Virus record (IMG/VR): IMGVR_UViG_3300046777_002716
Span: 1 to 64,000 of that record
DNA length: 64,000 nt
Direction: 5' to 3' (one strand)
From: a virus
Position 1 is the first letter of the stretch. Each line of letters opens with the position of its first letter. Shown here one piece after another: positions 3,409 through 12,048 of the stretch. The position numbers were made by a program, and so were the translations under genes. The notes under the pieces are model-generated. The model did not search any database, had not been told where the DNA came from, and saw only the letters and a list, made by a program, of their open reading frames with translations.

Positions 3409-3545
3409 AAAATATTTTAAATAGATAATTTTTTTACTGGAAATTATAAACCAGGCGGAGAAAGAATTCCCCATCCGCACCACCAATCCTTGAGAGAGAT
3501 TGGAAACTCATAAGAGGGTCATATTTGACTCCACCAGGGCAAGTT

Positions 3546-4360: not shown

Positions 4361-4361
4361 T

Positions 4362-4432
4362 CGGGGTGGAGAGGATCGAACTCCCGTCTTCATCTTCCCA
4401 AAAGATGCCGTCTACCGCTGACTTACACCCCG
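4362..4432 (-). tRNA. tRNA-Pro(TGG)
   Basis: A 71-nt cloverleaf with acceptor CGGGGTG/CACCCCG. C1:G72 is typical of bacterial tRNA-Pro. The anticodon loop is TTTGGGA and the T-loop TTCGATC. No 3' CCA is encoded. It is read from the promoter at 4463-4491. Confidence 0.92.
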
Positions 4433-4462
4433 TTGTGCCGTTATTTAGTTCGGTGTACAATC

Positions 4463-4491
4463 ATTATACCTATAACAGGAACGATTGTCAA
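4463..4491 (-). promoter_or_regulatory. Consensus sigma-70 promoter for tRNA-Pro
   Basis: TTGACA (4486-4491), 17 bp, TATAAT (4463-4468) on the minus strand, about 30 bp upstream of the tRNA-Pro 5' end. Confidence 0.85.
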
Positions 4492-4550
4492 GAGGTAACA
4501 AAGGATAAACAAAAACACATTATTATTTAACAAAGTTGCTATAAAATGAC

Positions 4551-4742
4551 TCATTTGTTTAAAAATTTAAAAAATTCTTCATTGATTACTTTATCAAGTT
4601 CAGTCAATTGATATCTAGTAAAATCCCAATTATCTAAAATTAACTTATCAATAAATCTATAAACTTCTGTTGATATTTTAATTTTCTGCCTATAAAAAGA
4701 ACTAAGTATGAATTGTCTTTTTTGCCAAACCTCATCTTTCAT
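4551..4742 (-). CDS. Hypothetical protein, 63 residues
   Basis: The product is basic and largely helical, with no recognised family. Its ATG overlaps the TGA of the upstream 49-residue gene (ATGA), which argues for a real translationally coupled gene. Confidence 0.6.
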   Translation of the reverse strand: MKDEVWQKRQFILSSFYRQKIKISTEVYRFIDKLILDNWDFTRYQLTELDKVINEEFFKFLNK

Positions 4743-4888
4743 TTTTCGTCACCAAGATACTTTGCTAAGGGATCTTTTTTAGTTTTTACTATTTCAACCG
4801 CTCTCTTATAGAACATGTTTTCGGTGTTACCAGAAGATTCGAAGGTTTCCTTGATCTTCACCCAATTGTTATAGGTGTGCTGATCCAT
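4739..4888 (-). CDS. Conserved-looking small protein, 49 residues
   Basis: The frame begins M-D-Q-H-T-Y-N-N-W-V and ends in a lysine-rich tail. It is short but has a clean start, coupled junction with the next gene (ATGA) and phage-like codon use. I recall similar short proteins in cyanomyoviruses, but assign no function. Confidence 0.6.
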   Translation of the reverse strand: MDQHTYNNWVKIKETFESSGNTENMFYKRAVEIVKTKKDPLAKYLGDEK

Positions 4889-4906
4889 AAGATTATAAGT
4901 TGAATA

Positions 4907-4925
4907 CTACTAGTTATACTAGTAG
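4907..4925. repeat. Hairpin upstream of the 49-residue gene
   Basis: Eight-base arms CTACTAGT and ACTAGTAG surround a 3-nt loop. It sits between tRNA-Ser and the 49-residue gene and could be a terminator, operator or mRNA leader hairpin. Confidence 0.5.
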
Positions 4926-5002
4926 ATAGTTTGATATTGTCATGTTTGTGTTGATACAAAAATATAGATTAAAAAAATCTAAAATTTTGTAGTATTTGTA
5001 AC

Positions 5003-5083
5003 GGAGAATAATAGAATCGAACTATCAGGTGTTACCCTGGCATCGTTTTCAAGACGATTTACCGACCATCGGTGCTATTCTCC
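5003..5083 (-). tRNA. tRNA-Ser(TGA)
   Basis: An 81-nt class II tRNA with acceptor GGAGAAT, anticodon loop CTTGAAA and a variable arm, as expected for serine. The T-loop is TTCGATT. It stands alone between small protein genes. Confidence 0.9.
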
Positions 5084-5122
5084 ATATTTTGAATATCCCA
5101 AATGTTTTGCGTAGTGACAATA

Positions 5123-5380
5123 TCAGCGGACTTCAAAATCTAATCTTCTTACTTTACGTTGACGCCTTGCTTCTTGAAATGCAAGATCTTCGTTTGTAAG
5201 TAATCCAGATTTTATTTTATTATTTAGAGAGTTTAGCATGACTATCTGTGATAAGTCAACTGCAGAGATCTTATTACCCCTAATAGTTGCCATATTTGGG
5301 CATCCACATGAAACTGTTTTCGTATGATGCCCTTCTATCTCCCTGTTACAGGATCTGCATCTAATTCTTATATTTTCCAT
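5123..5380 (-). CDS. Small zinc-ribbon-like protein, 85 residues
   Basis: Cysteines at about residues 8 and 11 (C-R-S-C) and 25 and 27 (C-G-C-P), with histidines between, suggest one zinc site in the N-terminal third. The C-terminus is basic (R-R-Q-R-K-V-R-R). It may bind nucleic acid. It follows the dps-like gene by 19 bp and is probably co-transcribed with it from the late motif at 5858-5865. Confidence 0.65.
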   Translation of the reverse strand: MENIRIRCRSCNREIEGHHTKTVSCGCPNMATIRGNKISAVDLSQIVMLNSLNNKIKSGLLTNEDLAFQEARRQRKVRRLDFEVR

Positions 5381-5399
5381 TTTTAATTATAAAATTTAT

Positions 5400-5837
5400 T
5401 TATTTTTCAGTGAAAGATCTTAAAAACCAAACAAACTTACCGTGTGCCTCGTTTAAATCATCAAGTAGATTTGTAGTTCCTCTTGAATTAAGTTCTTCTG
5501 CAACTTTTGCTGCTTCACTAAACATATCTATAAGAGTTTTATGGTCATCAAGTAGGTCTTTAATCATTTCCATCTCAGATAGACCACTCTTTGCTTCTGA
5601 AACCCTTGATACTTCAGAAACCCTTGAAAGAGCACTAACTGGTTTTGCACCAAGAAAACGAATATGCTCCGAAATTCTATCAACTTCTTCAAAGAGAGCA
5701 TTATACTGCTCACCAAATAAAGTATGAATTTGATAAAAATCAGGTCCACTAATGTGCCAATGATATACCCAAGTTTTTTGAAAAAGAACAAAAAGACTTG
5801 CCTGAGTATCAGATAAAATCTTATATAGTTTTTCCAT
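5400..5837 (-). CDS. Dps/ferritin-like protein
   Basis: The 145-residue protein keeps the Dps pattern: W-H-I-S-G-P-D-F near residues 27-34, then L-H/T-L-F-G-E-Q-Y, E-V-D-R-I-S-E-H-I-R and G-A-K-P. The histidine and the D/E residues would form the inter-subunit ferroxidase site. Family members assemble as dodecamers that oxidise and store iron and can coat DNA. A late motif lies 21 bp upstream, so it is probably made late and could protect replicated DNA from oxidative damage. Confidence 0.8.
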   Translation of the reverse strand: MEKLYKILSDTQASLFVLFQKTWVYHWHISGPDFYQIHTLFGEQYNALFEEVDRISEHIRFLGAKPVSALSRVSEVSRVSEAKSGLSEMEMIKDLLDDHKTLIDMFSEAAKVAEELNSRGTTNLLDDLNEAHGKFVWFLRSFTEK

Positions 5838-5857
5838 TATACCAATTAATTTTTAGG

Positions 5858-5865
5858 TATTTATA
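5858..5865 (-). promoter_or_regulatory. Late promoter motif TATAAATA
   Basis: An exact T4-type late -10 motif on the minus strand, 21 bp upstream of the dps-like ATG and just before tRNA-Val. Confidence 0.7.
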
Positions 5866-5869
5866 ATAT

Positions 5870-5940
5870 GGGTGATGACGGGATTGAACCGCCGGCCGCC
5901 TCAATGTAAACGAGATGCTCTACCGCTGAGCTAATCACCC
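5870..5940 (-). tRNA. tRNA-Val(TAC)
   Basis: A 71-nt cloverleaf with acceptor GGGTGAT/ATCACCC, anticodon loop TTTACAT and T-loop TTCAATC. It is the only valine tRNA seen. Confidence 0.9.
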
Positions 5941-5947
5941 AAAAAAG

Positions 5948-6112
5948 TCATGATTGACTTAGCATATACTCTACAGTATTAGCAATGTCATTCATAGCAG
6001 CACGAAGATCTTTTTGACCTCCAGATTCTTGCTTAATAATTGGTCGTGAAGAATCAGTAAGAGTCCAACGCCATTCATCAGCATGTTCAGAGTACCATAA
6101 TTTAATGTTCAT
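5948..6112 (-). CDS. Hypothetical protein, 54 residues
   Basis: The frame starts M-N-I-K-L-W-Y-S-E-H and is rich in tryptophan early on. It overlaps the upstream 52-residue gene by 11 nt. It ends 7 bp before tRNA-Val. No domain is recognised. Confidence 0.55.
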   Translation of the reverse strand: MNIKLWYSEHADEWRWTLTDSSRPIIKQESGGQKDLRAAMNDIANTVEYMLSQS

Positions 6113-6260
6113 TTTTCTGATACTCCAGTTTAACCCAATTTAAAAGCGCATTATAAGAATAAATTGCCGCTTCATTGCACTTATTCTTTTCCATATCATA
6201 GATATAGAACTCAAGTGCTTCAATGACCATTTGTCGGTCTTTTTGTGAAATAAGAGACAT
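6102..6260 (-). CDS. Hypothetical protein, 52 residues
   Basis: A short helical protein beginning M-S-L-I-S-Q-K-D-R-Q, first of an overlapping pair with the 54-residue gene. Its start lies within 10 bp of the hairpin that ends the SLH gene, so it may be read through from it. Unknown function. Confidence 0.5.
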   Translation of the reverse strand: MSLISQKDRQMVIEALEFYIYDMEKNKCNEAAIYSYNALLNWVKLEYQKNEH

Positions 6261-6268
6261 TGCTGAAA

Positions 6269-6286
6269 GGGGAGGTTTCCCTCCCC
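6269..6286 (-). terminator. Hairpin after the SLH protein gene
   Basis: GGGGAGG and CCTCCCC arms, 9 bp past the stop codon. The T-tract is short (CCTTTC), so termination may be partial. Confidence 0.5.
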
Positions 6287-6294
6287 AAGTTACA

Positions 6295-7179
6295 TCAGAA
6301 CTTGAAACCTAGACCAGTGGTGAATACTGGAGAGTATGCACCGTTGGTAGCACCGTAACTGTTAGCAGCATTGGTGGTAGGGAACTTCAGGTCAGCGAAA
6401 CCAACCAGAGAGTTGGTGATACGACCTTCCAGACCCACGGCGAGAACAACTTGACCCTTCTCACCCACAGCGGATTGGAAGTTAGCAGCGGTGTTGTTCA
6501 CGAAAGGAACTTGATAACCCACACCAGCGTACAGGTTTGCCTTGCTCACACCAGAAGCAGCACGGGCGAGACTCCAATCATAAGAAACTAGAGCACCACC
6601 AGCGGCACCGATTTGACCAGCAGGAGTACCAACGAAGTTAGCATAAGGACGGACGGCAACAGCATTTTGGTTGCTGAAGGTACGCACTGCATAACGACCT
6701 TGGATAGTACCACCAGACACGGTACGGTTCTCGGTGTAACCATTACCATCAACACCCTGCTTGTTCAGGAGAACACCAGCACCCAGGTAGTTACCTACGC
6801 CTTGTGCTTTCTGAGCAGAGGCAACTTCCAGAGCACTCACACGGGCGTTGGTGGCACCCAGTTCACGGGAGAACTCAGCACGGAGAGCAGCAGCGGTTTG
6901 GGCATCAGCAGCGGTGTAGAACTCGGTGATGCGGTCCAGGCAAGCATTAGTCAGGGCAGCGAGTTCAGCACGAGTAGCGGGTTGACCAGACTGGAAAGTA
7001 CCATTGGGATAACCAGCAACACAACCATAACGGGCAACAAGATTAGAGATCGCCTGATAGGACCACTCAGTAGGTTGCACATCACGCAGTTGAGAAACGC
7101 TAGTGACTTGTGCCATAGCAGGAGCAGCGATAGAAGTCGCGGCAACTACACCAGCAGTAATAATATTTTGAAAATTCAT
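6295..7179 (-). CDS. SLH-domain porin-like outer membrane protein
   Basis: The 294-residue protein has a signal peptide ending A-M-A-Q at about residue 24. It is followed by one SLH domain (about residues 28-85, with G-Y-P-N-G-T-F and T-R-A-E) and then a glycine/alanine-rich, beta-type C-terminal part ending in F-K-F, as in outer-membrane barrels. Cyanobacterial porins have this SLH-plus-barrel plan but are far longer (over 500 residues). This looks like a shortened, host-derived porin or surface protein. Its GC content is clearly above that of most neighbours. Secretion to the host envelope during infection is an inference. Confidence 0.75.
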   Translation of the reverse strand: MNFQNIITAGVVAATSIAAPAMAQVTSVSQLRDVQPTEWSYQAISNLVARYGCVAGYPNGTFQSGQPATRAELAALTNACLDRITEFYTAADAQTAAALRAEFSRELGATNARVSALEVASAQKAQGVGNYLGAGVLLNKQGVDGNGYTENRTVSGGTIQGRYAVRTFSNQNAVAVRPYANFVGTPAGQIGAAGGALVSYDWSLARAASGVSKANLYAGVGYQVPFVNNTAANFQSAVGEKGQVVLAVGLEGRITNSLVGFADLKFPTTNAANSYGATNGAYSPVFTTGLGFKF

Positions 7180-7236
7180 ATTGTATTAATAATTACAACT
7201 ACGAGGTTTATTTAGACGCCCTGAGTATTAGGGCAA

Positions 7237-7307
7237 GCGGCATATCGGATTCGAACCGATGACATTCAGCTTGGAAGGCTGACGTTCTACCACTGAACTA
7301 ATGCCGC
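7237..7307 (-). tRNA. tRNA-Gly(TCC)
   Basis: A 71-nt cloverleaf with acceptor GCGGCAT/ATGCCGC, anticodon loop CTTCCAA and T-loop TTCGAAT. It is read from the promoter at 7359-7387. Confidence 0.93.
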
Positions 7308-7358
7308 AAATGGTGGGGAGAAATAAATCTCCCAGCACACTTCTTTCACACGGAAGGG

Positions 7359-7387
7359 ATTATAAGACAAACTTTAAAGTTTGTCAA
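7359..7387 (-). promoter_or_regulatory. Consensus sigma-70 promoter
   Basis: TTGACA (7382-7387), 17 bp, TATAAT (7359-7364) on the minus strand. It lies directly after the 3' end of tRNA-Thr and drives tRNA-Gly and perhaps the SLH gene. The spacer contains the palindromic AACTTTAAAGTT. Confidence 0.85.
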
Positions 7388-7460
7388 GCCCCAGACAAGA
7401 CTTGAACTTGCGACCTGAGCTTTACAAAAGCCCTGCTCTATCCAACTGAGCTACTGAGGC
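7388..7460 (-). tRNA. tRNA-Thr(TGT)
   Basis: A 73-nt cloverleaf with acceptor GCCTCAG/CTGGGGC (one T-G pair), anticodon loop TTTGTAA and T-loop TTCAAGT. Confidence 0.92.
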
Positions 7461-7464
7461 AAAG

Positions 7465-7559
7465 GTGCCATGAGTGTCCACGGCACACCAGACACTTGGT
7501 TGTTTCGGATATGATGGTCCCGAAACTTATGATAGAATCGGAAATTTCCAACCCTATCA
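7465..7559 (-). ncRNA. Structured RNA candidate between tRNA-Thr and tRNA-Asn (two hairpins plus pseudoknot)
   Basis: This 95-nt spacer has no tRNA and no ORF but folds strongly. From its 5' end on the minus strand there are a TGATAG/CTATCA stem around GGAAATTTCC, and a 7-bp GTTTCGG/CCGAAAC hairpin. Two interleaved stems follow: AGTGTC (496-491) with GACACT (478-473), and GTGCC (486-482) with GGCAC (469-465). The interleaving predicts a pseudoknot. Function unknown. Confidence 0.5.
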
Positions 7560-7561
7560 AC

Positions 7562-7633
7562 TGGGGCGGCAGGGATCGAACCTGCGACCTAGATGTTAAC
7601 AGCATCCCGCTACTACCGCTGAGCTACACCCCA
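7562..7633 (-). tRNA. tRNA-Asn(GTT)
   Basis: A 72-nt cloverleaf with acceptor TGGGGTG/CGCCCCA, anticodon loop CTGTTAA and T-loop TTCGATC. Confidence 0.92.
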
Positions 7634-7643
7634 ATGTTTATTT

Positions 7644-7651
7644 TATAAATA
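7644..7651 (+). promoter_or_regulatory. Late promoter motif TATAAATA for the HNH gene
   Basis: An exact late -10 motif on the plus strand, 25 bp upstream of the HNH start codon and right beside tRNA-Asn. Confidence 0.7.
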
Positions 7652-7675
7652 AGATTAGCAGTTCGTGTTAATCTT

Positions 7676-8020
7676 ATGAAATGTGCTTGGCATCTATGTT
7701 TAGAAGAAGCAGTACTTTACAATGGCAGAGGCAAGTTTTGCTCCAAACAATGTAAAAACAAGTATCATGTAGACCAGAGAAGAAAGAAACTCAAGCAAGA
7801 CAGTATAGCATATAAAGGAGGTGCTTGTCAATGTTGTGGTTATAATCGTTCTCACTGGGCATTAGAGTTTCACCATTTAGACCCTAAAGAAAAAGATTTT
7901 CATTTATCTAAAGGTGGTCATACTAGAAGTTGGGAAAAAATCAAAGAAGAATTGGATAAATGTATTCTAGTATGTTCTAACTGCCATTCCGAAATTCATC
8001 ACGGAATTCGTGAATTATAA
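7676..8020 (+). CDS. HNH homing endonuclease-like protein
   Basis: The 114-residue protein has two zinc-binding pairs (C-A-W-H-L-C at the N-terminus; C-Q-C-C in the middle) and the HNH core L-E-F-H-H-L-D-P with a closing C-S-N-C-H-S-E-I-H-H. It is one of four plus-strand genes in the window and lies inside the tRNA array between tRNA-Asn and tRNA-Ala, as expected for a mobile free-standing endonuclease. It has its own late motif. Confidence 0.85.
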   Translation: MKCAWHLCLEEAVLYNGRGKFCSKQCKNKYHVDQRRKKLKQDSIAYKGGACQCCGYNRSHWALEFHHLDPKEKDFHLSKGGHTRSWEKIKEELDKCILVCSNCHSEIHHGIREL

Positions 8021-8076
8021 TGGAATGTAAGGGAAAGGAGTGCTCTTGGGCGAACCCGCAGGATCACTTTCCCGAT

Positions 8077-8148
8077 GGAGAATAGGAGACTCGAACTCCT
8101 GACCTTCGCCTTGCAAAGGCGCTGCTCTACCAACTGAGCTAATTCCCC
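8077..8148 (-). tRNA. tRNA-Ala(TGC)
   Basis: A 72-nt cloverleaf with acceptor GGGGAAT/ATTCTCC, anticodon loop TTTGCAA and T-loop TTCGAGT. The top anticodon-stem pair is G-A. The usual alanine G3:U70 pair is present. Confidence 0.9.
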
Positions 8149-8153
8149 TTGGG

Positions 8154-8224
8154 AGCGAGAGGGTGGAATTGAACCACCTACCTGAGGCTTATGAGACCTC
8201 CGTGCAACCGTTACACCTCTCCGC
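8154..8224 (-). tRNA. tRNA-Met-like (CAT), irregular acceptor stem
   Basis: The anticodon loop CTCATAA, D-stem GTGT/GCAC and T-arm GGTGG-TTCAATT-CCACC are clear. The acceptor strands GCGGAGAG and CTCTCGC pair only if one G is bulged. It could be an elongator or initiator methionine tRNA, or a lysidine-modified isoleucine tRNA; none of the three CAT tRNAs here has a clean initiator signature. Confidence 0.7.
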
Positions 8225-8239
8225 AATGCGTTTATGACA

Positions 8240-8268
8240 ATCATAAGGTATATATACCAGATTGTCAA
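8240..8268 (-). promoter_or_regulatory. Sigma-70 promoter for the tRNA-Met/Ala block
   Basis: TTGACA (8263-8268), 17 bp, TATGAT (8240-8245) on the minus strand. The spacer holds the palindromic GGTATATATACC. Confidence 0.8.
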
Positions 8269-8269
8269 G

Positions 8270-8343
8270 TGCCCGTGATAGGAGTCGAACCTACACTGTA
8301 TGGATTCTAAGTCCACCCTCTCTGCCAGTTGGAGTACACGGGC
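8270..8343 (-). tRNA. tRNA-Leu(TAG)
   Basis: A 74-nt tRNA with acceptor GCCCGTG/CACGGGC, anticodon loop CTTAGAA and T-loop TTCGACT. The variable region is unusually short for leucine, a feature shared with the Leu(TAA) and Leu(GAG) genes nearby. Confidence 0.88.
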
Positions 8344-8407
8344 AAGATGGATTAAGTGTGATATACCTCATAAGGATATAACAGGGACCTAACCTCTATC
8401 TCTTTAT

Positions 8408-8436
8408 ATAGTAACAAATTCTAAAGAATTTGTCAA
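8408..8436 (-). promoter_or_regulatory. Sigma-70 promoter for tRNA-Leu(TAG)
   Basis: TTGACA (8431-8436), 17 bp, TACTAT (8408-8413) on the minus strand, directly after the 3' end of tRNA-Arg(ACG). Confidence 0.75.
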
Positions 8437-8438
8437 GC

Positions 8439-8511
8439 GTCCTCTGCAGGATTTGAACCTGCGACTTCTTCGTTCGTAGCGAAGCACTCTGTTCCACTGA
8501 GTTAAGAGGAC
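8439..8511 (-). tRNA. tRNA-Arg(ACG)
   Basis: A 73-nt cloverleaf with acceptor GTCCTCT/AGAGGAC, anticodon loop CTACGAA and T-loop TTCAAAT. The A34 would need conversion to inosine by the host to read all CGN-type codons. Confidence 0.92.
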
Positions 8512-8516
8512 AAAGG

Positions 8517-8589
8517 CACCCTCGGTAGGATTCGAACCTACGACTAATCGCTTAGAAGGCGAATACTCTAGCCACTGAGTTACGAGGGC
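8517..8589 (-). tRNA. tRNA-Arg(TCT)
   Basis: A 73-nt cloverleaf with acceptor GCCCTCG/CGAGGGT, anticodon loop CTTCTAA and T-loop TTCGAAT. A second Arg(TCT) gene is at 11888. Confidence 0.92.
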
Positions 8590-8596
8590 ATTTTGG

Positions 8597-8667
8597 CGAA
8601 GGATGAGGGATTTGAACCCCCACTAACAGTTTTGGAGACTGTCGTGCTACCATTACACTAATCCAAC
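8597..8667 (-). tRNA. tRNA-Trp(CCA)
   Basis: The anticodon loop CTCCAAA is flanked by a perfect 5-bp stem. The acceptor GTTGGAT/ATCCTTC has two T-T mismatches at positions 2 and 3, so charging or stability may be impaired. G73 fits tryptophan. Confidence 0.82.
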
Positions 8668-8689
8668 ATAAGTTCCTCAAGATGAGGAA

Positions 8690-8777
8690 TACCAGCCGAG
8701 GGTATCGAACCCTCCCAAAGGCCCTAATCTGGGGCAAATCGCTTATAAGGCGACTCTGAACACCTGTTCTGACTGGC
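8690..8777 (-). tRNA. Class II tRNA with TAT anticodon (tRNA-Ile(TAT)-like, identity uncertain)
   Basis: An 88-nt tRNA with acceptor GCCAGTC/GGCTGGT, a short-loop D-arm GAACAGGTGTTC, anticodon loop CTTATAA and a T-arm GAGGG-TTCGATA-CCCTC. It has a long variable arm built on GCCC/GGGC pairing. The loop reads UAU, which would decode AUA (isoleucine), yet long variable arms belong to leucine, serine and tyrosine tRNAs. A73 is compatible with Leu, Ile or Tyr. Confidence 0.75.
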
Positions 8778-8800
8778 GATTATTTACTCATAAAGAGCAA

Positions 8801-8879
8801 TACTCCACCTCAGACTTGAACTGAGAATCCGAAGAAGTAGATTTTGAGTCTACCGCGTTTACCATTTCGCCAGTGGAGC
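8801..8879 (-). tRNA. tRNA-Leu(CAA)
   Basis: A 79-nt class II tRNA with acceptor GCTCCAC/GTGGAGT, anticodon loop CTCAAAA in a 5-bp stem, a longer variable arm and T-loop TTCAAGT. Confidence 0.9.
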
Positions 8880-8906
8880 GTAATTATACAAACTTTAAGT
8901 TTGCAA

Positions 8907-8979
8907 TACCCGTGGTCGGATTCGAACCGACACTGTAGAGATTTTAAGTCTCCTGTCTCTGCCGTTGGACTACACGGGC
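8907..8979 (-). tRNA. tRNA-Leu(TAA)
   Basis: A 73-nt tRNA with acceptor GCCCGTG/CACGGGT, anticodon loop CTTAAAA and T-loop TTCGAAT. It is close in sequence to Leu(TAG) at 8270, including the short variable region, and suggests a duplication within the array. Confidence 0.9.
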
Positions 8980-8983
8980 ATAG

Positions 8984-9056
8984 TGCTCGATGAGGGGATC
9001 GAACCCACCTATATCCGATTATGAGTCGGGTGCTTTCACCAGATAGCTAATCGAGC
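8984..9056 (-). tRNA. tRNA-Met(CAT)
   Basis: A 73-nt cloverleaf with a perfect acceptor GCTCGAT/ATCGAGC, anticodon loop CTCATAA and T-loop TTCGATC. It is the first gene behind the promoter at 9103-9131. Confidence 0.9.
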
Positions 9057-9080
9057 AGTGTTAGGTTTTCAAGGTTCGAA

Positions 9081-9098
9081 GTGGTCTCTCAACCACCC
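9081..9098 (-). repeat. Promoter-proximal 5' hairpin, copy 1
   Basis: On the minus strand GTGGT and ACCAC arms flank a TGAGAG loop, beginning about 5 bp after the -10 box of the 9103-9131 promoter. The same 18 bases recur at 11587-11604 behind a matching promoter. Confidence 0.7.
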
Positions 9099-9102
9099 TC
9101 TT

Positions 9103-9131
9103 AGAATAACACCAAACCCAGTCTGGGTCAA
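9103..9131 (-). promoter_or_regulatory. Sigma-70-like promoter (TTGACC/TATTCT)
   Basis: TTGACC (9126-9131), 17 bp, TATTCT (9103-9108) on the minus strand. It has a sister promoter at 11609-11637 with the same boxes and the same 5' hairpin. Confidence 0.7.
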
Positions 9132-9140
9132 GTGGGTTGT

Positions 9141-9158
9141 GCCAGTTTGGGAACTGGC
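9141..9158. repeat. Palindrome between tRNA-Leu(GAG) and a promoter
   Basis: GCCAGTT and AACTGGC arms with a TGGG loop. It is a near copy of the 4339-4360 palindrome and lies 2 bp after the tRNA 3' end and 9 bp before the -35 box. Confidence 0.65.
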
Positions 9159-9160
9159 GA

Positions 9161-9234
9161 TGTCCGTGAGAGGATTCGAACCTCCAACACCTACCCCCTC
9201 AAGGTAGTGCCTCTTCCAGTTGGGCTACACGGAC
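9161..9234 (-). tRNA. tRNA-Leu(GAG)
   Basis: A 74-nt tRNA with acceptor GTCCGTG/CACGGAC, anticodon loop TTGAGGG in a CTACC/GGTAG stem and T-loop TTCGAAT. The variable region is short for leucine. Confidence 0.88.
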
Positions 9235-9237
9235 GAG

Positions 9238-9309
9238 TTCCAGAACTAGGATTCGAACCTAGACAAACACAGTCAAAGTGTGTTGACCTGCCAGTTAGTC
9301 GATTCTGGA
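9238..9309 (-). tRNA. tRNA-Gln(TTG)
   Basis: A 72-nt cloverleaf with acceptor TCCAGAA/TTCTGGA, anticodon loop CTTTGAC and T-loop TTCGAAT. Confidence 0.92.
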
Positions 9310-9328
9310 TTGAAATGGGATTACCCCA

Positions 9329-9658
9329 TTAGTAATATGAAAATGATGCAGAAGTAGCAGTAGCAGTGTCTGTAGCATCATCATCATCTTGATGTTTACG
9401 ATTTTTAAAATACATAAACAAAGGTGATTTTTCGGTTGGAACTAGTACATCAGACCAAAAAGATTCTCCTGACGAACATTGATAAAGAACATCACCCTCA
9501 TAAGGAATCATAGCAACAGCATTGCAAGAATTGTCTTTAATGTAATTATATTCTTTATAATATACTGGACGATTTTTTGCTGCTTGCATAGCAAACACTG
9601 GTTCACTGATTCCAAAAATAATCAAAAACAGAAAAAATAATTTAATGATAAATTTCAT
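9329..9658 (-). CDS. Small secreted protein inside the tRNA array
   Basis: I start this 109-residue protein at the ATG at 9656-9658; a TTG two codons upstream is less likely. Residues 1-23 form a signal peptide (K-F-I-I-K-L then a leucine/phenylalanine core, ending V-F-A). The mature part has a cysteine pair, an aspartate run (about residues 90-94) and a serine/threonine-rich tail. No family is recognised. It interrupts the tRNA array between tRNA-Cys and tRNA-Gln. Confidence 0.65.
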   Translation of the reverse strand: MKFIIKLFFLFLIIFGISEPVFAMQAAKNRPVYYKEYNYIKDNSCNAVAMIPYEGDVLYQCSSGESFWSDVLVPTEKSPLFMYFKNRKHQDDDDATDTATATSASFSYY

Positions 9659-9678
9659 AATCAATTGTAGTTTGTTTA

Positions 9679-9696
9679 TTATCTCAAAAGAGATAA
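9679..9696. repeat. Hairpin after tRNA-Cys
   Basis: Perfect 7-nt arms TTATCTC and GAGATAA with a 4-nt loop, one base beyond the tRNA-Cys 3' end. It may end or trim the tRNA precursor. Confidence 0.55.
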
Positions 9697-9697
9697 G

Positions 9698-9773
9698 AGT
9701 TCAGGGTGGGATTTGAACCCACGGTGAAAGAAGTTTTGCAGACTTCCGCATTCGACCACTCTGCCACCTGAAC
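9698..9773 (-). tRNA. tRNA-Cys(GCA)
   Basis: A 76-nt tRNA with acceptor GTTCAGG/CCTGAAC, anticodon loop CTGCAAA, T-loop TTCAAAT and U73, the cysteine discriminator. Confidence 0.92.
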
Positions 9774-9776
9774 ATA

Positions 9777-9849
9777 TGGGTCTGGTGGGGTTTGAACCCA
9801 CAACTTTTCGGTTAAGAGCCGACTACTCTACCAATTGAGTTACAGACCC
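9777..9849 (-). tRNA. tRNA-Lys(CTT)
   Basis: A 73-nt cloverleaf with acceptor GGGTCTG/CAGACCC and anticodon loop CTCTTAA. It is a close relative of Lys(TTT) at 11400 and probably arose from it by duplication. Confidence 0.9.
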
Positions 9850-9852
9850 AAG

Positions 9853-9924
9853 AGCCCTTAGTGAGAATCAAACTCACGACCTCATTCTTACCAAGAATGC
9901 GTTCTATCACTGAACTATAAGGGC
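9853..9924 (-). tRNA. tRNA-Thr(GGT)
   Basis: A 72-nt cloverleaf with acceptor GCCCTTA/TAAGGGC, anticodon loop TTGGTAA and an unusual T-loop TTTGATT. Confidence 0.9.
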
Positions 9925-9926
9925 GG

Positions 9927-9998
9927 GGTGCCATACGAGATTTGAACTCGTCTACCCAGTTTCACAAACTGGTTCCTTAACCACTAGGATAATGGCAC
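9927..9998 (-). tRNA. tRNA-His(GTG)
   Basis: A 72-nt cloverleaf with acceptor GTGCCAT/ATGGCAC, anticodon loop TTGTGAA and C73, as histidine needs. The -1 position is T in the DNA, so G-1 would have to be added or retained by other means. Confidence 0.92.
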
Positions 9999-9999
9999 A

Positions 10000-10073
10000 T
10001 GGCAGTAGATGGATTTGAACCACCGACCATAGGAATATGAGACCCGTGCTCTACCAAACTGAGCTATACTGCC
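10000..10073 (-). tRNA. tRNA with CAT anticodon (Met or Ile2)
   Basis: Acceptor GGCAGTA/TACTGCC and T-arm are regular. The anticodon loop CTCATAT sits on an irregular stem. It could be an elongator Met tRNA or an isoleucine tRNA whose C34 becomes lysidine; sequence alone does not decide. Confidence 0.8.
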
Positions 10074-10076
10074 AAA

Positions 10077-10161
10077 CGGAGAGTAGAGGATTCGAACCTC
10101 TGGTGCTGTTACACACAAGACCTTTCCAAGATCTCACCATAAACCACTCGGACAACTCTCC
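10077..10161 (-). tRNA. tRNA-Ser(GGA)
   Basis: An 85-nt class II tRNA with acceptor GGAGAGT/ACTCTCC, anticodon loop TTGGAAA, a long variable arm and G73. Confidence 0.92.
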
Positions 10162-10165
10162 AAGG

Positions 10166-10254
10166 CGGAAGTGGTTGGATTCGAACCAACGGTGCCGATT
10201 ACTCGACACGGAATCTTAGCAGGATTCTGCGATAAGCCTCTCTGCCACACTTCC
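10166..10254 (-). tRNA. tRNA-Ser(GCT)
   Basis: An 89-nt class II tRNA with acceptor GGAAGTG/CACTTCC, anticodon loop CTGCTAA, a long variable arm and G73. Confidence 0.92.
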
Positions 10255-10257
10255 AAG

Positions 10258-10350
10258 TTGATAAGGGCACCTGTCCGAATTTAAAGTGCGCTTGGGTCGT
10301 TTAATCCACCGCCGTCACACTAATGTTTGGTGGCGATGGACCCTTATCAA
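10258..10350 (-). ncRNA. Structured RNA candidate, 93 nt, closed by a 10-bp stem
   Basis: TTGATAAGGG (10258-10267) pairs perfectly with CCCTTATCAA (10341-10350). Inside, TCCA/CGCC pairs with GGCG/TGGA, and a GCAC/GTGC hairpin follows. There is no ORF and no T-loop. It lies between tRNA-Ser(GCT) and tRNA-Ile, in the way stable RNAs C and D lie in the T4 tRNA cluster. Function unknown. Confidence 0.55.
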
Positions 10351-10364
10351 ATCCCCGAAGGGAA

Positions 10365-10436
10365 TTGGAACGGTGAGATTTGAACTCACGACTTCTGCGT
10401 TATCAGCACAGCACTCTACCACTGAGTTACATTCCA
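10365..10436 (-). tRNA. tRNA-Ile(GAT)
   Basis: A 72-nt cloverleaf with acceptor TGGAATG/CGTTCCA, anticodon loop CTGATAA and T-loop TTCAAAT. Confidence 0.92.
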
Positions 10437-10441
10437 TCGAA

Positions 10442-10554
10442 GTAAGAGACACTAGTATCATCTTACCTGTTTCAGTTTTCGGACTGAAAAACCTATCACT
10501 AACCAACCTAAGTTTCATAACGGAGGAAGTGAATCTCCGTGACCATAAAGGTCA
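10442..10554 (-). ncRNA. Four consecutive hairpins between tRNA-Ile and tRNA-Phe
   Basis: This 113-nt spacer contains GTAAGA/TCTTAC (10442-10466), TTTCAGT/ACTGAAA (10470-10489), CGGAG/CTCCG (10521-10539) and TGACC/GGTCA (10540-10554). No start codon frame or tRNA is present. It may be a non-coding RNA or a processed spacer. Confidence 0.4.
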
Positions 10555-10556
10555 AG

Positions 10557-10630
10557 TGGGAACACACAGAATTGAACTGTGACCTCATGTTCTTCAGACA
10601 TACGTGCCGACCAACCTACACCATGTTCCC
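10557..10630 (-). tRNA. tRNA-Phe(GAA)
   Basis: A 74-nt cloverleaf with acceptor GGGAACA/TGTTCCC, anticodon loop CTGAAGA and T-loop TTCAATT. Confidence 0.9.
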
Positions 10631-10636
10631 AAAGTT

Positions 10637-10711
10637 TGGAAATTCAGGAATCGAACCTGTCGGGCAGTAAGGGCGATCAACTCCCCACTTTCCTGTGTTC
10701 CACACATTTCC
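10637..10711 (-). tRNA. tRNA-like gene, isotype undetermined
   Basis: The acceptor GGAAATG/AATTTCC and T-arm ACAGG-TTCGATT-CCTG are good, and the length (75 nt) is normal. The D-arm is a tight GTGT/ACAC hairpin without the usual GG loop. The anticodon arm (GGGG...GCCC) gives no 7-nt loop with U33 and a purine at 37; TGA or GAT are the nearest readings. It is a decayed tRNA or a tRNA mimic. Confidence 0.6.
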
Positions 10712-10714
10712 AAG

Positions 10715-10788
10715 TCGGAATGACAGGATTCGAACCTGCGACATCTCGCTCCCAAAGCGAGTGCTCTACCAAACTGAGCTACATTCCG
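10715..10788 (-). tRNA. tRNA-Pro(TGG), second copy
   Basis: A 74-nt cloverleaf with acceptor CGGAATG/CATTCCG (C1:G72), anticodon loop TTTGGGA in a perfect CTCGC/GCGAG stem and T-loop TTCGAAT. Confidence 0.92.
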
Positions 10789-10865
10789 TGGTCTGAGAGG
10801 CAGGATTTGAACCTGCGACCTGAGCGTTCCAAACACCCAGCTCTACCAAACTGAGCTACTCCCAG
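10789..10865 (-). tRNA. tRNA-Pro(TGG), third copy, with encoded CCA
   Basis: Acceptor CTGGGAG/CTCTCAG keeps C1:G72, followed by A73 and a genomic CCA, the only encoded CCA among these tRNAs. The anticodon loop TTTGGAA has A37 instead of the G37 expected for proline, so the assignment is a little less certain. Confidence 0.82.
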
Positions 10866-10868
10866 AGG

Positions 10869-10940
10869 TATTCCTAACGGGATTCGAACCCGTGCTACAA
10901 CCTTGAAAGGGTTGTGACCTAACCGCTAGTCGATAGGAAC
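10869..10940 (-). tRNA. tRNA-Glu(TTC)
   Basis: A 72-nt cloverleaf with acceptor GTTCCTA/TAGGAAT, anticodon loop CTTTCAA in a CAACC/GGTTG stem and T-loop TTCGAAT. Confidence 0.92.
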
Positions 10941-10944
10941 TTGA

Positions 10945-11037
10945 GAGAGGGGTATCCCACACGAAGTTACTTACGGATCACGCTTCGTAGCCTTATGGAT
11001 CCTGCCAGGGTCAATCTGGTGCCTAGGAATCCCTCTC
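10945..11037 (-). ncRNA. Structured RNA candidate, 93 nt, between tRNA-Glu and tRNA-Asp
   Basis: A GAGAGGG/CCCTCTC closing stem encloses a second GGATTCC/GGGATACC helix, a CCAG/CTGG hairpin with a 7-nt loop and an ACGAAG/CTTCGT hairpin. No TTCRA T-loop is found, so it is not a standard tRNA. Its length equals that of the RNA at 10258-10350. Confidence 0.5.
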
Positions 11038-11042
11038 CAATT

Positions 11043-11117
11043 CCAGTTATCGCTACGTCATTTCTTACCTAACTGGCAACCTTCAGAATGACGTGGAGAT
11101 TCGTACTGATGATCTCC
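11043..11117 (-). ncRNA. Hairpin plus predicted H-type pseudoknot beside tRNA-Asp
   Basis: On the minus strand a GGAGAT/ATCTCC hairpin (11117-11095) is followed by two interleaved perfect helices: ACGTCATT (11094-11087) with AATGACGT (11062-11055), and CCAGTTA (11076-11070) with TAACTGG (11049-11043). The 8-bp and 7-bp stems cannot both form without a pseudoknot. No ORF. Unknown function. Confidence 0.55.
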
Positions 11118-11119
11118 AA

Positions 11120-11192
11120 CGACCCTATGGGAATTCGAATCCCAGATTCCTACTAGACAGGTAGGCGTGATAGACCACTTCACTATAGGGCC
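11120..11192 (-). tRNA. tRNA-Asp(GTC)
   Basis: A 73-nt cloverleaf with acceptor GGCCCTA/TAGGGTC, anticodon loop CTGTCTA, T-loop TTCGAAT and G73, the aspartate discriminator. Confidence 0.92.
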
Positions 11193-11196
11193 ATGT

Positions 11197-11266
11197 TCAC
11201 CCGAGCAGGATTCGAACCTGCATCTCTTTCCATGGAAAGACGACATACCATTAGCCGCATCGGATG
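11197..11266 (-). tRNA. tRNA, isotype undetermined (6-nt anticodon loop)
   Basis: Acceptor CATCCGA/TCGGGTG (extendable by two pairs) and T-arm GCAGG-TTCGAAT-CCTGC are regular. The anticodon arm is a perfect palindrome TCTTT-CCATGG-AAAGA, leaving only six loop bases, so CAT, CCA and TCC readings all need a distorted arm. Total length is 70 nt. Confidence 0.65.
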
Positions 11267-11270
11267 AAGG

Positions 11271-11361
11271 TGGGAGAGGAGGGAATCGAACCCCCGATGG
11301 TTCTTATGTAACGGTTTTACAGACCGCCGCCACACATATTGCCGACAGTAGCCACTCTCCC
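11271..11361 (-). tRNA. tRNA-Tyr(GTA)
   Basis: A 91-nt class II tRNA with acceptor GGGAGAG/CTCTCCC, anticodon loop CTGTAAA, a long variable arm and A73, all fitting bacterial tyrosine tRNA. Confidence 0.93.
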
Positions 11362-11399
11362 AAATAGTTTATATTTAACGACCGAACTAAAACGGTCAA

Positions 11400-11471
11400 T
11401 GGGTCTGGTGGGATTTGAACCCACAACTTCCAGGTTAAAAGCCCGTTACTCTACCGTTGAGTTACAGACCC
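11400..11471 (-). tRNA. tRNA-Lys(TTT)
   Basis: A 72-nt cloverleaf with acceptor GGGTCTG/CAGACCC and anticodon loop CTTTTAA. It resembles Lys(CTT) at 9777 over most of its length. Confidence 0.92.
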
Positions 11472-11501
11472 ATAAAAGGTTTAGATTGTCAAGGTGCGAT
11501 T

Positions 11502-11581
11502 GTCACTGGAAGATAATGTTTTATCCAGAGGCCCAAGATAAATCTTAGGACTTAGACTGATGCTAGAAGCAGAGCAGTGAC
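11502..11581 (-). ncRNA. Structured RNA candidate transcribed from the 11609-11637 promoter
   Basis: CAGTGAC (11581-11575, read on the minus strand as GTCACTG) pairs with GTCACTG/CAGTGAC at 11508-11502. The stem encloses an AAGAT/ATCTT hairpin (about 11533-11549) and a GATAA/TTATC hairpin (about 11511-11525). The segment lies between the promoter's 5' hairpin and tRNA-Lys, so it is either a long tRNA leader or a separate RNA. Confidence 0.4.
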
Positions 11582-11586
11582 TTGTG

Positions 11587-11604
11587 GTGGTCTCTCAACC
11601 ACCC
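11587..11604 (-). repeat. Promoter-proximal 5' hairpin, copy 2
   Basis: The same 18 bases as 9081-9098, here with one more stem pair, beginning about 5 bp after the -10 box. Confidence 0.7.
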
Positions 11605-11608
11605 TTTA

Positions 11609-11637
11609 AGAATACCACTCTGTCCGTTAGGGGTCAA
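11609..11637 (-). promoter_or_regulatory. Sigma-70-like promoter (TTGACC/TATTCT), sister of 9103-9131
   Basis: TTGACC (11632-11637), 17 bp, TATTCT (11609-11614) on the minus strand, directed at the structured segment and tRNA-Lys(TTT). Confidence 0.7.
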
Positions 11638-11642
11638 GTGGG

Positions 11643-11668
11643 TTGTGACACTTAGAGAACTGTCACAA
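11643..11668. repeat. Palindrome upstream of the 11609 promoter
   Basis: Eight-base arms TTGTGACA and TGTCACAA with a 10-nt loop. It takes the place that the GTGCCAGTT palindromes hold at 4339 and 9141, between a transcript end and a promoter. Confidence 0.6.
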
Positions 11669-11673
11669 GCAAC

Positions 11674-11707
11674 AAAAAAGGGGAGGAAACTTTTGGTTTC
11701 TCTCCCC
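11674..11707 (-). terminator. Rho-independent terminator
   Basis: On the minus strand GGGGAGAGAAACC and GTTTCCTCCCC form a stem followed by six T. It lies 25 bp after the stop of the 33-codon ORF. Confidence 0.75.
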
Positions 11708-11732
11708 TGTCTTTTTGCTTTTATGGCAGTTA

Positions 11733-11834
11733 CTACATCTGACCTACCATACTCGCAAACAGGGGAGCACCCTCAATATGCCAATAGCGGCAATCGAGAA
11801 TACTAAACTGTTTTGTGGGCATTGGGTAAGACAT
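11733..11834 (-). CDS. Possible micro-protein, 33 residues
   Basis: This short frame (M-S-Y-P-M-P-T-K-Q-F start) sits exactly between its own promoter (11858-11886) and its own terminator (11674-11707). The ATG would be about 17 nt from the transcript start and has no clear ribosome site. It is either a micro-protein or a small RNA that happens to be open; no family is recognised. Confidence 0.35.
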   Translation of the reverse strand: MSYPMPTKQFSILDCRYWHIEGAPLFASMVGQM

Positions 11835-11857
11835 TGTTTTCGACCTAAGTGTTATTA

Positions 11858-11886
11858 TTTATAATACTTTTATTTTTAAAAGTCAA
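11858..11886 (-). promoter_or_regulatory. Sigma-70-like promoter (TTGACT/TATAAA)
   Basis: TTGACT (11881-11886), 17 bp, TATAAA (11858-11863) on the minus strand, immediately after the 3' end of tRNA-Arg. Confidence 0.65.
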
Positions 11887-11887
11887 G

Positions 11888-11962
11888 CGTCTCAGGTTGG
11901 ATTCGAACCAACGACTCACGCTTTAGAAGAGCGTTACTCTAATTCCACTGAGTTACTGAGAC
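11888..11962 (-). tRNA. tRNA-Arg(TCT), second copy
   Basis: A 75-nt cloverleaf with acceptor GTCTCAG/CTGAGAC, anticodon loop CTTCTAA in an ACGCT/AGCGT stem and T-loop TTCGAAT. It differs from Arg(TCT) at 8517 in the acceptor. Confidence 0.92.
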
Positions 11963-12048
11963 AAGAGACCTCCTGGTTTGTGCATCGTTGAGAGGCATAG
12001 GAGGGGAAGGACTTATGCGAAGTTTGGACCTCCGCCGCCTATGAGGAT

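Follow-up and report, generated by a model that had tools for sequence, protein, structure and literature searches.

A conserved non-coding RNA with complementary hairpin loops in the tRNA array of a cyanophage-like virus

INTRODUCTION

In the prohead RNA (pRNA) of phage phi29, which serves DNA packaging, two complementary loops of 4 nt pair hand in hand between molecules. GOLLD and ROOL are homo-oligomeric phage RNAs of unknown function that often lie near tRNA islands, and covarying kissing loops help to join their copies into nanocages (PMC12286853). Crossing pairings occur in short RNAs of another kind, the type III antitoxins ToxI, CptI and TenpI and their known phage mimic pseudo-ToxI; the host systems consist of tandem repeats beside a toxin gene (PMC5449768 and PMC12373285). 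T4-like cyanophages contain a further small RNA, abiF (RF03085), which in the DNA analysed here and its relatives lies a few nucleotides 5′ of a tRNA; for S-CREM1, three cis-regulatory RNAs have been reported besides abiF (PMC9964418).

Here, we describe an RNA of ~95 nt, known from sequence, that lies between two tRNA genes of a viral genome. It resembles GOLLD and ROOL in its phage origin, its location near tRNA genes and its covarying complementary loops. However, those RNAs are much larger (many GOLLD >800 nt) and form nanocages, and there is no sequence match: their Rfam models hit nothing at the gathering threshold in the whole stretch of DNA analysed or at E up to 10 in positions 7200-7700. 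By analogy, the RNA may work like GOLLD and ROOL, though it is no member by the Rfam test. With phi29 pRNA it shares two mutually complementary loops, which are 6 nt long here, but the phages, the size and the layout are different, and the pRNA model gave no match under the same two settings. It is short and has a crossing pairing like the type III antitoxins, whereas their repeats and toxin gene, as described in those sources, have no counterpart: a single copy lies between tRNAs, with no second unit in the 101,897-base record and never more than one in 25 records, and no adjoining toxin gene was recognised, the neighbours being tRNAs and the nearest ORFs of at least 80 aa being HNH-like and porin-like. 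The abiF RNA is a neighbour and not the same RNA, since its model gave no match over the cut-off on the spacer. In the open-licence literature, as far as its text was available, we found no earlier description of spacer RNAs of this kind; the accessible part of the S-SRM01 paper gives eleven tRNAs and does not notice such an RNA (PMC8557907).

RESULTS

A structured RNA between tRNA-Asn and tRNA-Thr

The stretch analysed (the window) comprises 64 kb out of a 101,897-base IMG/VR virus record. Its source is, judged by its relatives, a T4-like cyanophage; the nearest named relative found, by a search that may pass over very close records, is Synechococcus phage S-SRM01, which covers 26% of the first 25 kb of the window at 81.3%. 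ARAGORN called 32 tRNA genes in the window, all on the minus strand, from 4361 to 11962. Coordinates of the features discussed are collected in Table 1.

Table 1. Features of the spacer RNA, its surroundings and other elements of the window
Feature	Positions	Strand	Description
Whole non-coding RNA (A-B-H1-H2 cassette)	7461-7559	-	fold z -4.45; covariance model R1 113.6 bits (the window belongs to the R1 training set)
Hairpin A	7530-7559 (7547-7559 with 7530-7542)	-	13 bp, tetraloop; abuts tRNA-Asn 3′ end
Hairpin B	7502-7526 (7520-7526 with 7502-7508)	-	7 bp, 11-nt loop GACCATCATAT
Hairpin H1	7487-7500 (7497-7500 with 7487-7490)	-	4 bp, ACCA/TGGT; loop AGTGTC at 7491-7496
Hairpin H2	7465-7486 (7479-7486 with 7465-7472)	-	8 bp, GTGCCGTG/CATGGCAC; loop GACACT at 7473-7478
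Loop-loop helix	7491-7496 with 7473-7478	-	6 bp; H1 and H2 loops exact complements
tRNA-Asn(GTT)	7560-7634	-	upstream flank of the spacer RNA (ARAGORN)
tRNA-Thr(TGT)	7387-7460	-	downstream flank, 4 nt past H2 (ARAGORN)
Promoter-like site	7802-7831	-	TTGACA-18-TATACT, TG before second hexamer; consensus match only
Sigma-70-type promoter match	7359-7387	-	12/12 (TTGACA-17-TATAAT), within palindrome directly past tRNA-Thr
Porin-like ORF	6295-7179	-	among nearest ORFs of at least 80 aa to the spacer
114-aa ORF	7676-8020	+	opposite to tRNA array; HNH endonuclease E 0.0083, 16.7 bits, below Pfam cut-off 21.4
abiF RNA (RF03085)	11968-12004	-	49.3 bits, cut-off 37; 5 nt 5′ of tRNA-Arg(TCT); only abiF match of the window
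wcaG RNA (RF01761)	3411-3511	-	71 bits, cut-off 42
Hairpin element	8020-8075	-	conserved, GGGAAAGTGATCCTGCGG...CTCCTTTCCC, past tRNA-Ala; relatives in 26 loci
Arg-Leu spacer	8344-8436	-	TTGACA...TATATA palindrome and conserved block ending CACTTAATCCATC; relatives in 144 loci
tRNA-like element	10631-10713	-	T arm and closing stem (by eye); uncalled by ARAGORN or at Rfam gathering threshold; relatives in 4 loci
Asp-Glu spacer	10941-11118	-	two conserved elements (by eye): hairpin and pseudoknot with varying crossing stem; separate ~97-nt element
tRNA-like gene	11267-11398	-	missed by ARAGORN; apparently tRNA-Tyr (GTA, by eye), enlarged D region; relatives in 23 loci
Sub-threshold tmRNA match	11268-11361		26 bits, cut-off 47; within the tRNA-Tyr-like gene

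A preliminary description of this DNA, made from the sequence alone, had noted a spacer without ORF between tRNA-Thr and tRNA-Asn. Both flanks are as described and lie on the minus strand, and no ORF of at least 80 aa overlaps the spacer. Because it sits between two minus-strand tRNA genes, an RNA made together with them would be of the minus strand. Folding agrees: the minus strand reaches -40.7 kcal/mol (z -4.45), equalled by none of 200 shuffles, while the plus-strand fold is weaker (z -2.28; 5 of 200 shuffles equal it). The minus strand is thus the better-supported RNA.

Read in this direction, the spacer holds four hairpins. The loop of hairpin B reads GATCATCATAT in six of the seven other cassettes described below. 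H1 and H2 adjoin directly, and H2 is followed by CTTT and then by tRNA-Thr; the energy model gives H2 a ninth pair at the cost of part of its loop. Neither ARAGORN nor Rfam found a tRNA or decayed tRNA within 7461-7559.

The preliminary description had recognised most of these pairings in a different arrangement. Its 7-bp hairpin is our hairpin B. Its 6-bp stem (7530-7535/7554-7559) around the palindrome GGAAATTTCC is present, but forms only a portion of the 13-bp hairpin A. Its two interleaved stems both exist where it had placed them (7473-7478/7491-7496, AGTGTC/GACACT on the plus strand; 7465-7469/7482-7486, GTGCC/GGCAC); however, the 6-bp stem is the helix between the H1 and H2 loops and the 5-bp stem is the base of H2. 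What it had overlooked is the ACCA/TGGT stem, which turns the crossing 6-bp stem into a loop-loop helix of two adjoining hairpins. Folding and covariation (see below) lend strong support to its central proposal, a structured spacer RNA with hairpins and crossing pairs. The observation is confirmed and had been understated, and the interpretation attached to it is partly supported.

Rfam searches at the gathering threshold with the window and twelve relatives returned tRNAs, wcaG, abiF, tRNA-Sec and tmRNA, all outside the spacer, and at E up to 10 in 7200-7700 only chance-level names fell on it. Exact scans of IMG/VR with two pieces of the window spacer gave no matches. Among named phages, the window spacer hit three records at E 0.9 to 3 only, the cassette of locus L144 hit none, a relative with an additional module (L013, A-B-C-F) hit only a 26-nt piece of S-SRM01 (none by megablast), and the S-SRM01 spacer hit its own two records only. 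Plasmids yielded one record, at E 0.4. Exact cores of hairpin B in 52 bacterial contigs were rejected as chance matches: one of the 52 extends the stem by 4 bp, versus 118 of 123 viral-locus cores listed, by 4 or 5. The spacer RNA is a real, conserved phage RNA outside every Rfam family.

The RNA is kept as a cassette between different tRNA genes

The full A-B-H1-H2 cassette was found in at least seven further IMG/VR contigs, flanked by Asn/Thr (L103), Thr/Met (L140, L142, L289), Asn/Ala (L141), Arg/Gly (L144) and Ile/Arg (L145). Occurring between five different tRNA pairs, the cassette does not belong to any single tRNA gene but forms a separate unit. These seven score 93.9-118.6 bits with model R1, whose training set holds six of them; L289, outside that set, scores 103.1 bits. 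Seven of the 14 contigs from the free-loop scan carry A-B followed by a tRNA-Leu-like start and were rejected as cassettes.

The Asn-Thr spacer of S-SRM01 measures 207 nt. It opens with a hairpin in place of A that still pairs though many positions differ, and ends with two adjoining hairpins whose 6-nt loops pair, 4 nt 5′ of tRNA-Thr (both by eye). The model of H1-H2 scores this phage 64.2 bits, S-SRM01 being in its training set. A pattern made of the S-SRM01 loops and the tRNA D-arm matched 54 IMG/VR contigs, 53 of them with 14 nt between the loops; tRNA-Thr is called directly after the loops in 52 of the 53, and the remaining one (L014) ends inside tRNA-Thr. One contig of the 54 (L011) was discarded as a chance match.

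Wider H1-H2 patterns gave 170 raw matches, of which 28 read as opposite-strand mirror images, leaving 142. A filter of 4 bp beside the loops lost members such as L045, and a recount made without it gave 154 sites with 41 distinct sequences among the matches listed, loop letters being restricted to AATGCC-like and GGCACT-like choices. In 40 of the 41, H1 is fully paired, seven or all eight H2 pairs form and the loop helix has 6/6 pairs; the other (L285) looks like a chance match, as do L131 and L132. Several contigs stand under two locus ids (L143 = L103; L015/L111; L016/L112), so site counts do not equal independent phages. Loci L004, L005 and L378-L381 duplicate sequence of the window or S-SRM01. 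When we scanned for pairs of nearby hairpins with complementary 6-nt loops, 123 places came up, 46 in the AGTG[T/C]C classes and at most 8 per loop pair in the others.

Among the matches listed, the tRNA called next after H1-H2 is Thr, Val, Leu, His, Met, Ala, Gly or Arg. The second loop ends 11-13 nt, and H2 itself about 3-5 nt, 5′ of that tRNA in 131 of the 154 sites. In most of the other 23, a conserved module beginning GTAGGTGCC intervenes (for example, in L152, L161 and L236); L187 and L253 have no tRNA close behind H1-H2.

Eight cassettes fold alike and covary

Folded separately, all eight cassettes adopt the same structure (z -4.45 to -6.43), and for each none of 200 shuffles was as good; L289 has one mismatch in hairpin A. 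In the alignment of the eight (A4), 99.0% of 301 cells are paired and 11 of 38 pairs show a double change. The covariation score of 0.300, versus 0.115 in shuffles, was reached by 0 of 500 of them, and sliding the partners by 1-3 columns lowers pairing to 34-43%. Double changes affect four of the 13 pairs of hairpin A, five of the eight of H2 and two of the six of the loop-loop helix. The latter reads AGTGCC/GGCACT in six cassettes, AGTGTC/GACACT in the window and AATGCC/GGCATT in L289, that is, two compensatory double changes (U-A for C-G in the window, A-U for G-C in L289) with zero mismatches in eight sequences. L289 was found through the B core by a scan that left the loop letters free.

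B and H1 are invariant in A4 and draw no covariation support from it, an invariance partly by construction as the search fixed the B core and CCA/TGG. Hairpin B is supported by its varied arms: in 121 of the 125 B-type viral-locus matches listed, the stem continues past the core for four paired bases, and eleven different arm pairs occur. For H1, we used an alignment of 28 members of the other subfamily (A5), where two of six pairs show double changes and one a one-sided change. Its covariation score was reached by 0 of 500 shuffles and its number of double-change pairs by 4 of 500; its number of pair types does not stand out, as 200 of 500 shuffles have at least as many. In a third alignment of 36 distinct sequences (A2), double changes occur in all eight pairs of H2. 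Only H2 counts there, because the searches behind A2 and A5 fixed most loop letters, so that loop invariance is by construction while information comes from the stems and the Y/R choices; L045, L253 and L289 were left out of A2, and H1 was counted in A5 only, since in A2 the gap that the window subfamily has in H1 is put in the wrong place by MAFFT.

Spacer modules recombine

H1-H2 (F) is one of six pieces, A to F, delimited and named by eye, that recombine in spacers, often between the same tRNAs. The combinations seen were A-B-F (window, L103), A-B-C-F (L013, L018), A-D-E-F (S-SRM01, L006), A-E-F (L008, L041), E-F (L045), A-C-D-E-F (L012), A-C (L060, L085, L104) and A-B (L061). In 80 loci picked solely by an adjoining porin gene, the F model found L103, L111 and L112 and one chance-level match. 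Among 25 large viral records, 15 carry one copy of F and 10 none; since 14 of the 15 had been obtained via F patterns, the copy number is informative and the frequency is not. H1-H2 occurs in only one (that of L115) of the 11 records not obtained by H1-H2 patterns. F is single in the 101,897-base record and in S-SRM01, and never exceeded one copy in the 27 records searched. S-SRM01 is the sole named phage found with these modules, and the group is otherwise known almost wholly from metagenomes.

The preliminary description had named deletion or free variation of the spacer in close relatives as what would speak against it. The outcome is mixed: all eight full cassettes keep the fold with compensatory changes, while module content varies widely among phages. 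Modules are often lost or swapped, which counts against the explanation we favour below.

HNH-type genes could aid the spread of the cassette. Besides the HNH-like ORF near the spacer, an HNH gene is annotated in S-WAM2, where it lies between tRNA-Ala and tRNA-Asn, and the homing endonuclease SegB is reported to amplify anti-defence loci (PMC13096335).

Other RNA elements of the array

The preliminary description had also likened the spacer to an element at 11043-11117. The shared plan stands; kinship does not, as the two have no common 6-mer and neither of our covariance models matches there at E up to 10. The 11043-11117 element is, judging by sequence, a different RNA. It is kept in other phages, with the crossing stem altered in sequence and the first hairpin swapped in several loci (by eye). 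As the first hairpin is swapped and the crossing stem kept, both spacers seem to follow one rule, with exchangeable hairpins beside a fixed crossing-pair element. The ~97-nt element of the same Asp-Glu spacer has a GGAGAGG/CCTCTCT closing stem and a possible second pseudoknot (by eye).

Of 25 viral records, 14 carry a single abiF RNA, which scores over the cut-off in 12. In relatives it lies 2-8 nt before tRNA-Arg (L001, L013, L033, L045), tRNA-Ile(TAT) (L008, L030) or tRNA-Tyr (L006). A cyanophage abiF RNA may possibly act as an RNA antitoxin or decoy. Beside the tRNAs of another viral contig (L253, 3971-4223, plus strand), we observed a cyanobacterial-type tmRNA match (RF01851, 72.4 bits, cut-off 70).

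The two loops fit pairing between molecules better than a pseudoknot

In 64 of 72 flank-distinct sequences, H1 and H2 are joined without a linker, whether H1 has 4, 5 or 6 bp; the remaining eight lack one or more of the outermost pairs of H2. The absence of a linker at any H1 length is as would be expected of coaxially stacked hairpins, and in a coarse A-form model coaxial kissing within one molecule would have to bridge about 44-50 Angstrom with zero linker nucleotides. With H1 and H2 adjoining in this way, pairing of the loops between molecules is more likely than pairing within one, unless the loops alternate with a pseudoknot.

The preliminary description had read the crossing stems as a pseudoknot, which is one of two possible topologies. 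The same RNA might pair its loops in cis as an H-type pseudoknot, perhaps switching with the two-hairpin form: AGTGTC/GACACT and GTGCC/GGCAC can be drawn in this way with connecting loops of 4, 3 and 3 nt, as deduced from the letters, and no partner molecule would be needed. Such a pseudoknot could form only if the whole of H1 and the upper three pairs of H2 opened, yet compensatory changes keep these too, and the spacing of the loops tracks stem length. We therefore regard pairing in cis as a credible though rather unlikely arrangement. Conservation of the whole of H1 and H2 alongside the loop-loop helix, at zero linker, fits better with pairing between molecules.

DISCUSSION

The hairpins, the loop-loop helix, the strand, the mobility of the cassette and the limit of one copy per searched record are supported by comparison. 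Beyond these, we infer transcription, excision, pairing in trans, a target and a benefit to the phage. The explanation that we favour, tentatively and at somewhat less than even confidence, is that of an excised, self-associating phage RNA that presents hairpins A and B to a host factor and titrates it. A non-coding RNA gene of ~95 nt would be co-transcribed with the tRNAs, and tRNA processing would probably release its product, bounded by the 3′ end of tRNA-Asn and by the site where RNase P cuts tRNA-Thr. The four hairpins would form, and the complementary 6-nt loops of the two adjoining 3′ hairpins would most likely pair across two or more copies, as a kissing dimer or chain, and less likely within one copy. 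Displayed on this assembly, hairpins A and B (the latter with its conserved loop) would titrate a host factor during infection; a protein that binds or cuts RNA is the likeliest candidate.

The promoter-like site upstream of tRNA-Asn could, as a consensus match, start a transcript of tRNA-Asn, the RNA and tRNA-Thr; three such sites were found in 7200-8300 versus 1.9 expected. No hairpin with a T run behind it, the mark of an intrinsic terminator, was found in the same interval. S-SRM01 also has a promoter match akin to the one past tRNA-Thr (by eye). Three observations suggest that the enzymes maturing the two flanking tRNAs also release the RNA: A begins at the tRNA-Asn end, the gap between H2 and the next tRNA is fixed in 131 of 154 sites and no terminator-like site was found. 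Given the other 23 sites, most with an intervening module and two with no close tRNA, release by RNase P cannot be general. A host protein that binds or cuts RNA is favoured as the target since the B loop is kept while its stem varies (the B core having been fixed by the scan for it), abiF RNA keeps it company and one phage is described as mimicking an RNA antitoxin. The position beside tRNA genes would equally suit a role in the maturation of the tRNAs.

Such a role could be that of a structured insulator or processing element that separates pre-tRNAs and protects their ends or guides RNase P or RNase Z, with no partner in trans. Hairpin A, or its S-SRM01 substitute, adjoins the upstream tRNA directly in both phages, H2 keeps its short distance to the next tRNA at most sites, and 10 of the 11 non-tRNA stretches of the array that were compared have relatives in other loci, all of which an insulator would explain. 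It requires, however, neither a conserved B loop nor a compensated loop-loop pairing nor a limit of one copy; other spacers of the array hold simple palindromes (for example, 7308-7386 and 8880-8905, by eye), and in the 23 exceptional sites H1-H2 is not immediately 5′ of a called tRNA. We consider it unlikely that insulation is the function.

Another reading has the RNA act as an antitoxin or decoy directed at an Abi nuclease or type III-like toxin of the host, as the pseudo-ToxI of phage phi-TE does, a mimicry described in PMC5449768. The abiF RNA just 5′ of tRNAs in the same arrays may itself act so, and a C. difficile member of the abiF family neutralises its toxin by binding (PMC12373285). 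Against this stand the lack of repeats, of a toxin gene recognised alongside and of an Rfam antitoxin match, and the chance-like nature of the exact B core in the 52 bacterial contigs; we give this reading a low probability. Chance structure in a neutral spacer could draw on the palindrome-rich spacers of compact arrays and on variable module content, but is extremely improbable given the folds of all eight cassettes and covariation scores that, in each of the three alignments, none of 500 shuffles matched.

The favoured reading of a self-associating RNA could be extended to the whole array. The modules A-F, the abiF RNA and the further spacer RNAs would then be a kit of exchangeable small RNAs freed by tRNA processing, in which the H1-H2 kissing connector joins copies into dimers or filaments with interchangeable host-binding hairpins, a modular anti-host arsenal. 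This extension is speculative, and we would not bet on it as it stands.

The covarying loop-loop pair offers a direct bench test. As S-SRM01 is isolated, has a known Synechococcus host and carries H1-H2, expression and deletion can be tested now. The presence of long tRNA arrays in phages has long called for an explanation; in one group of cyanophages, gaps of the array are themselves conserved, recombining RNA genes.
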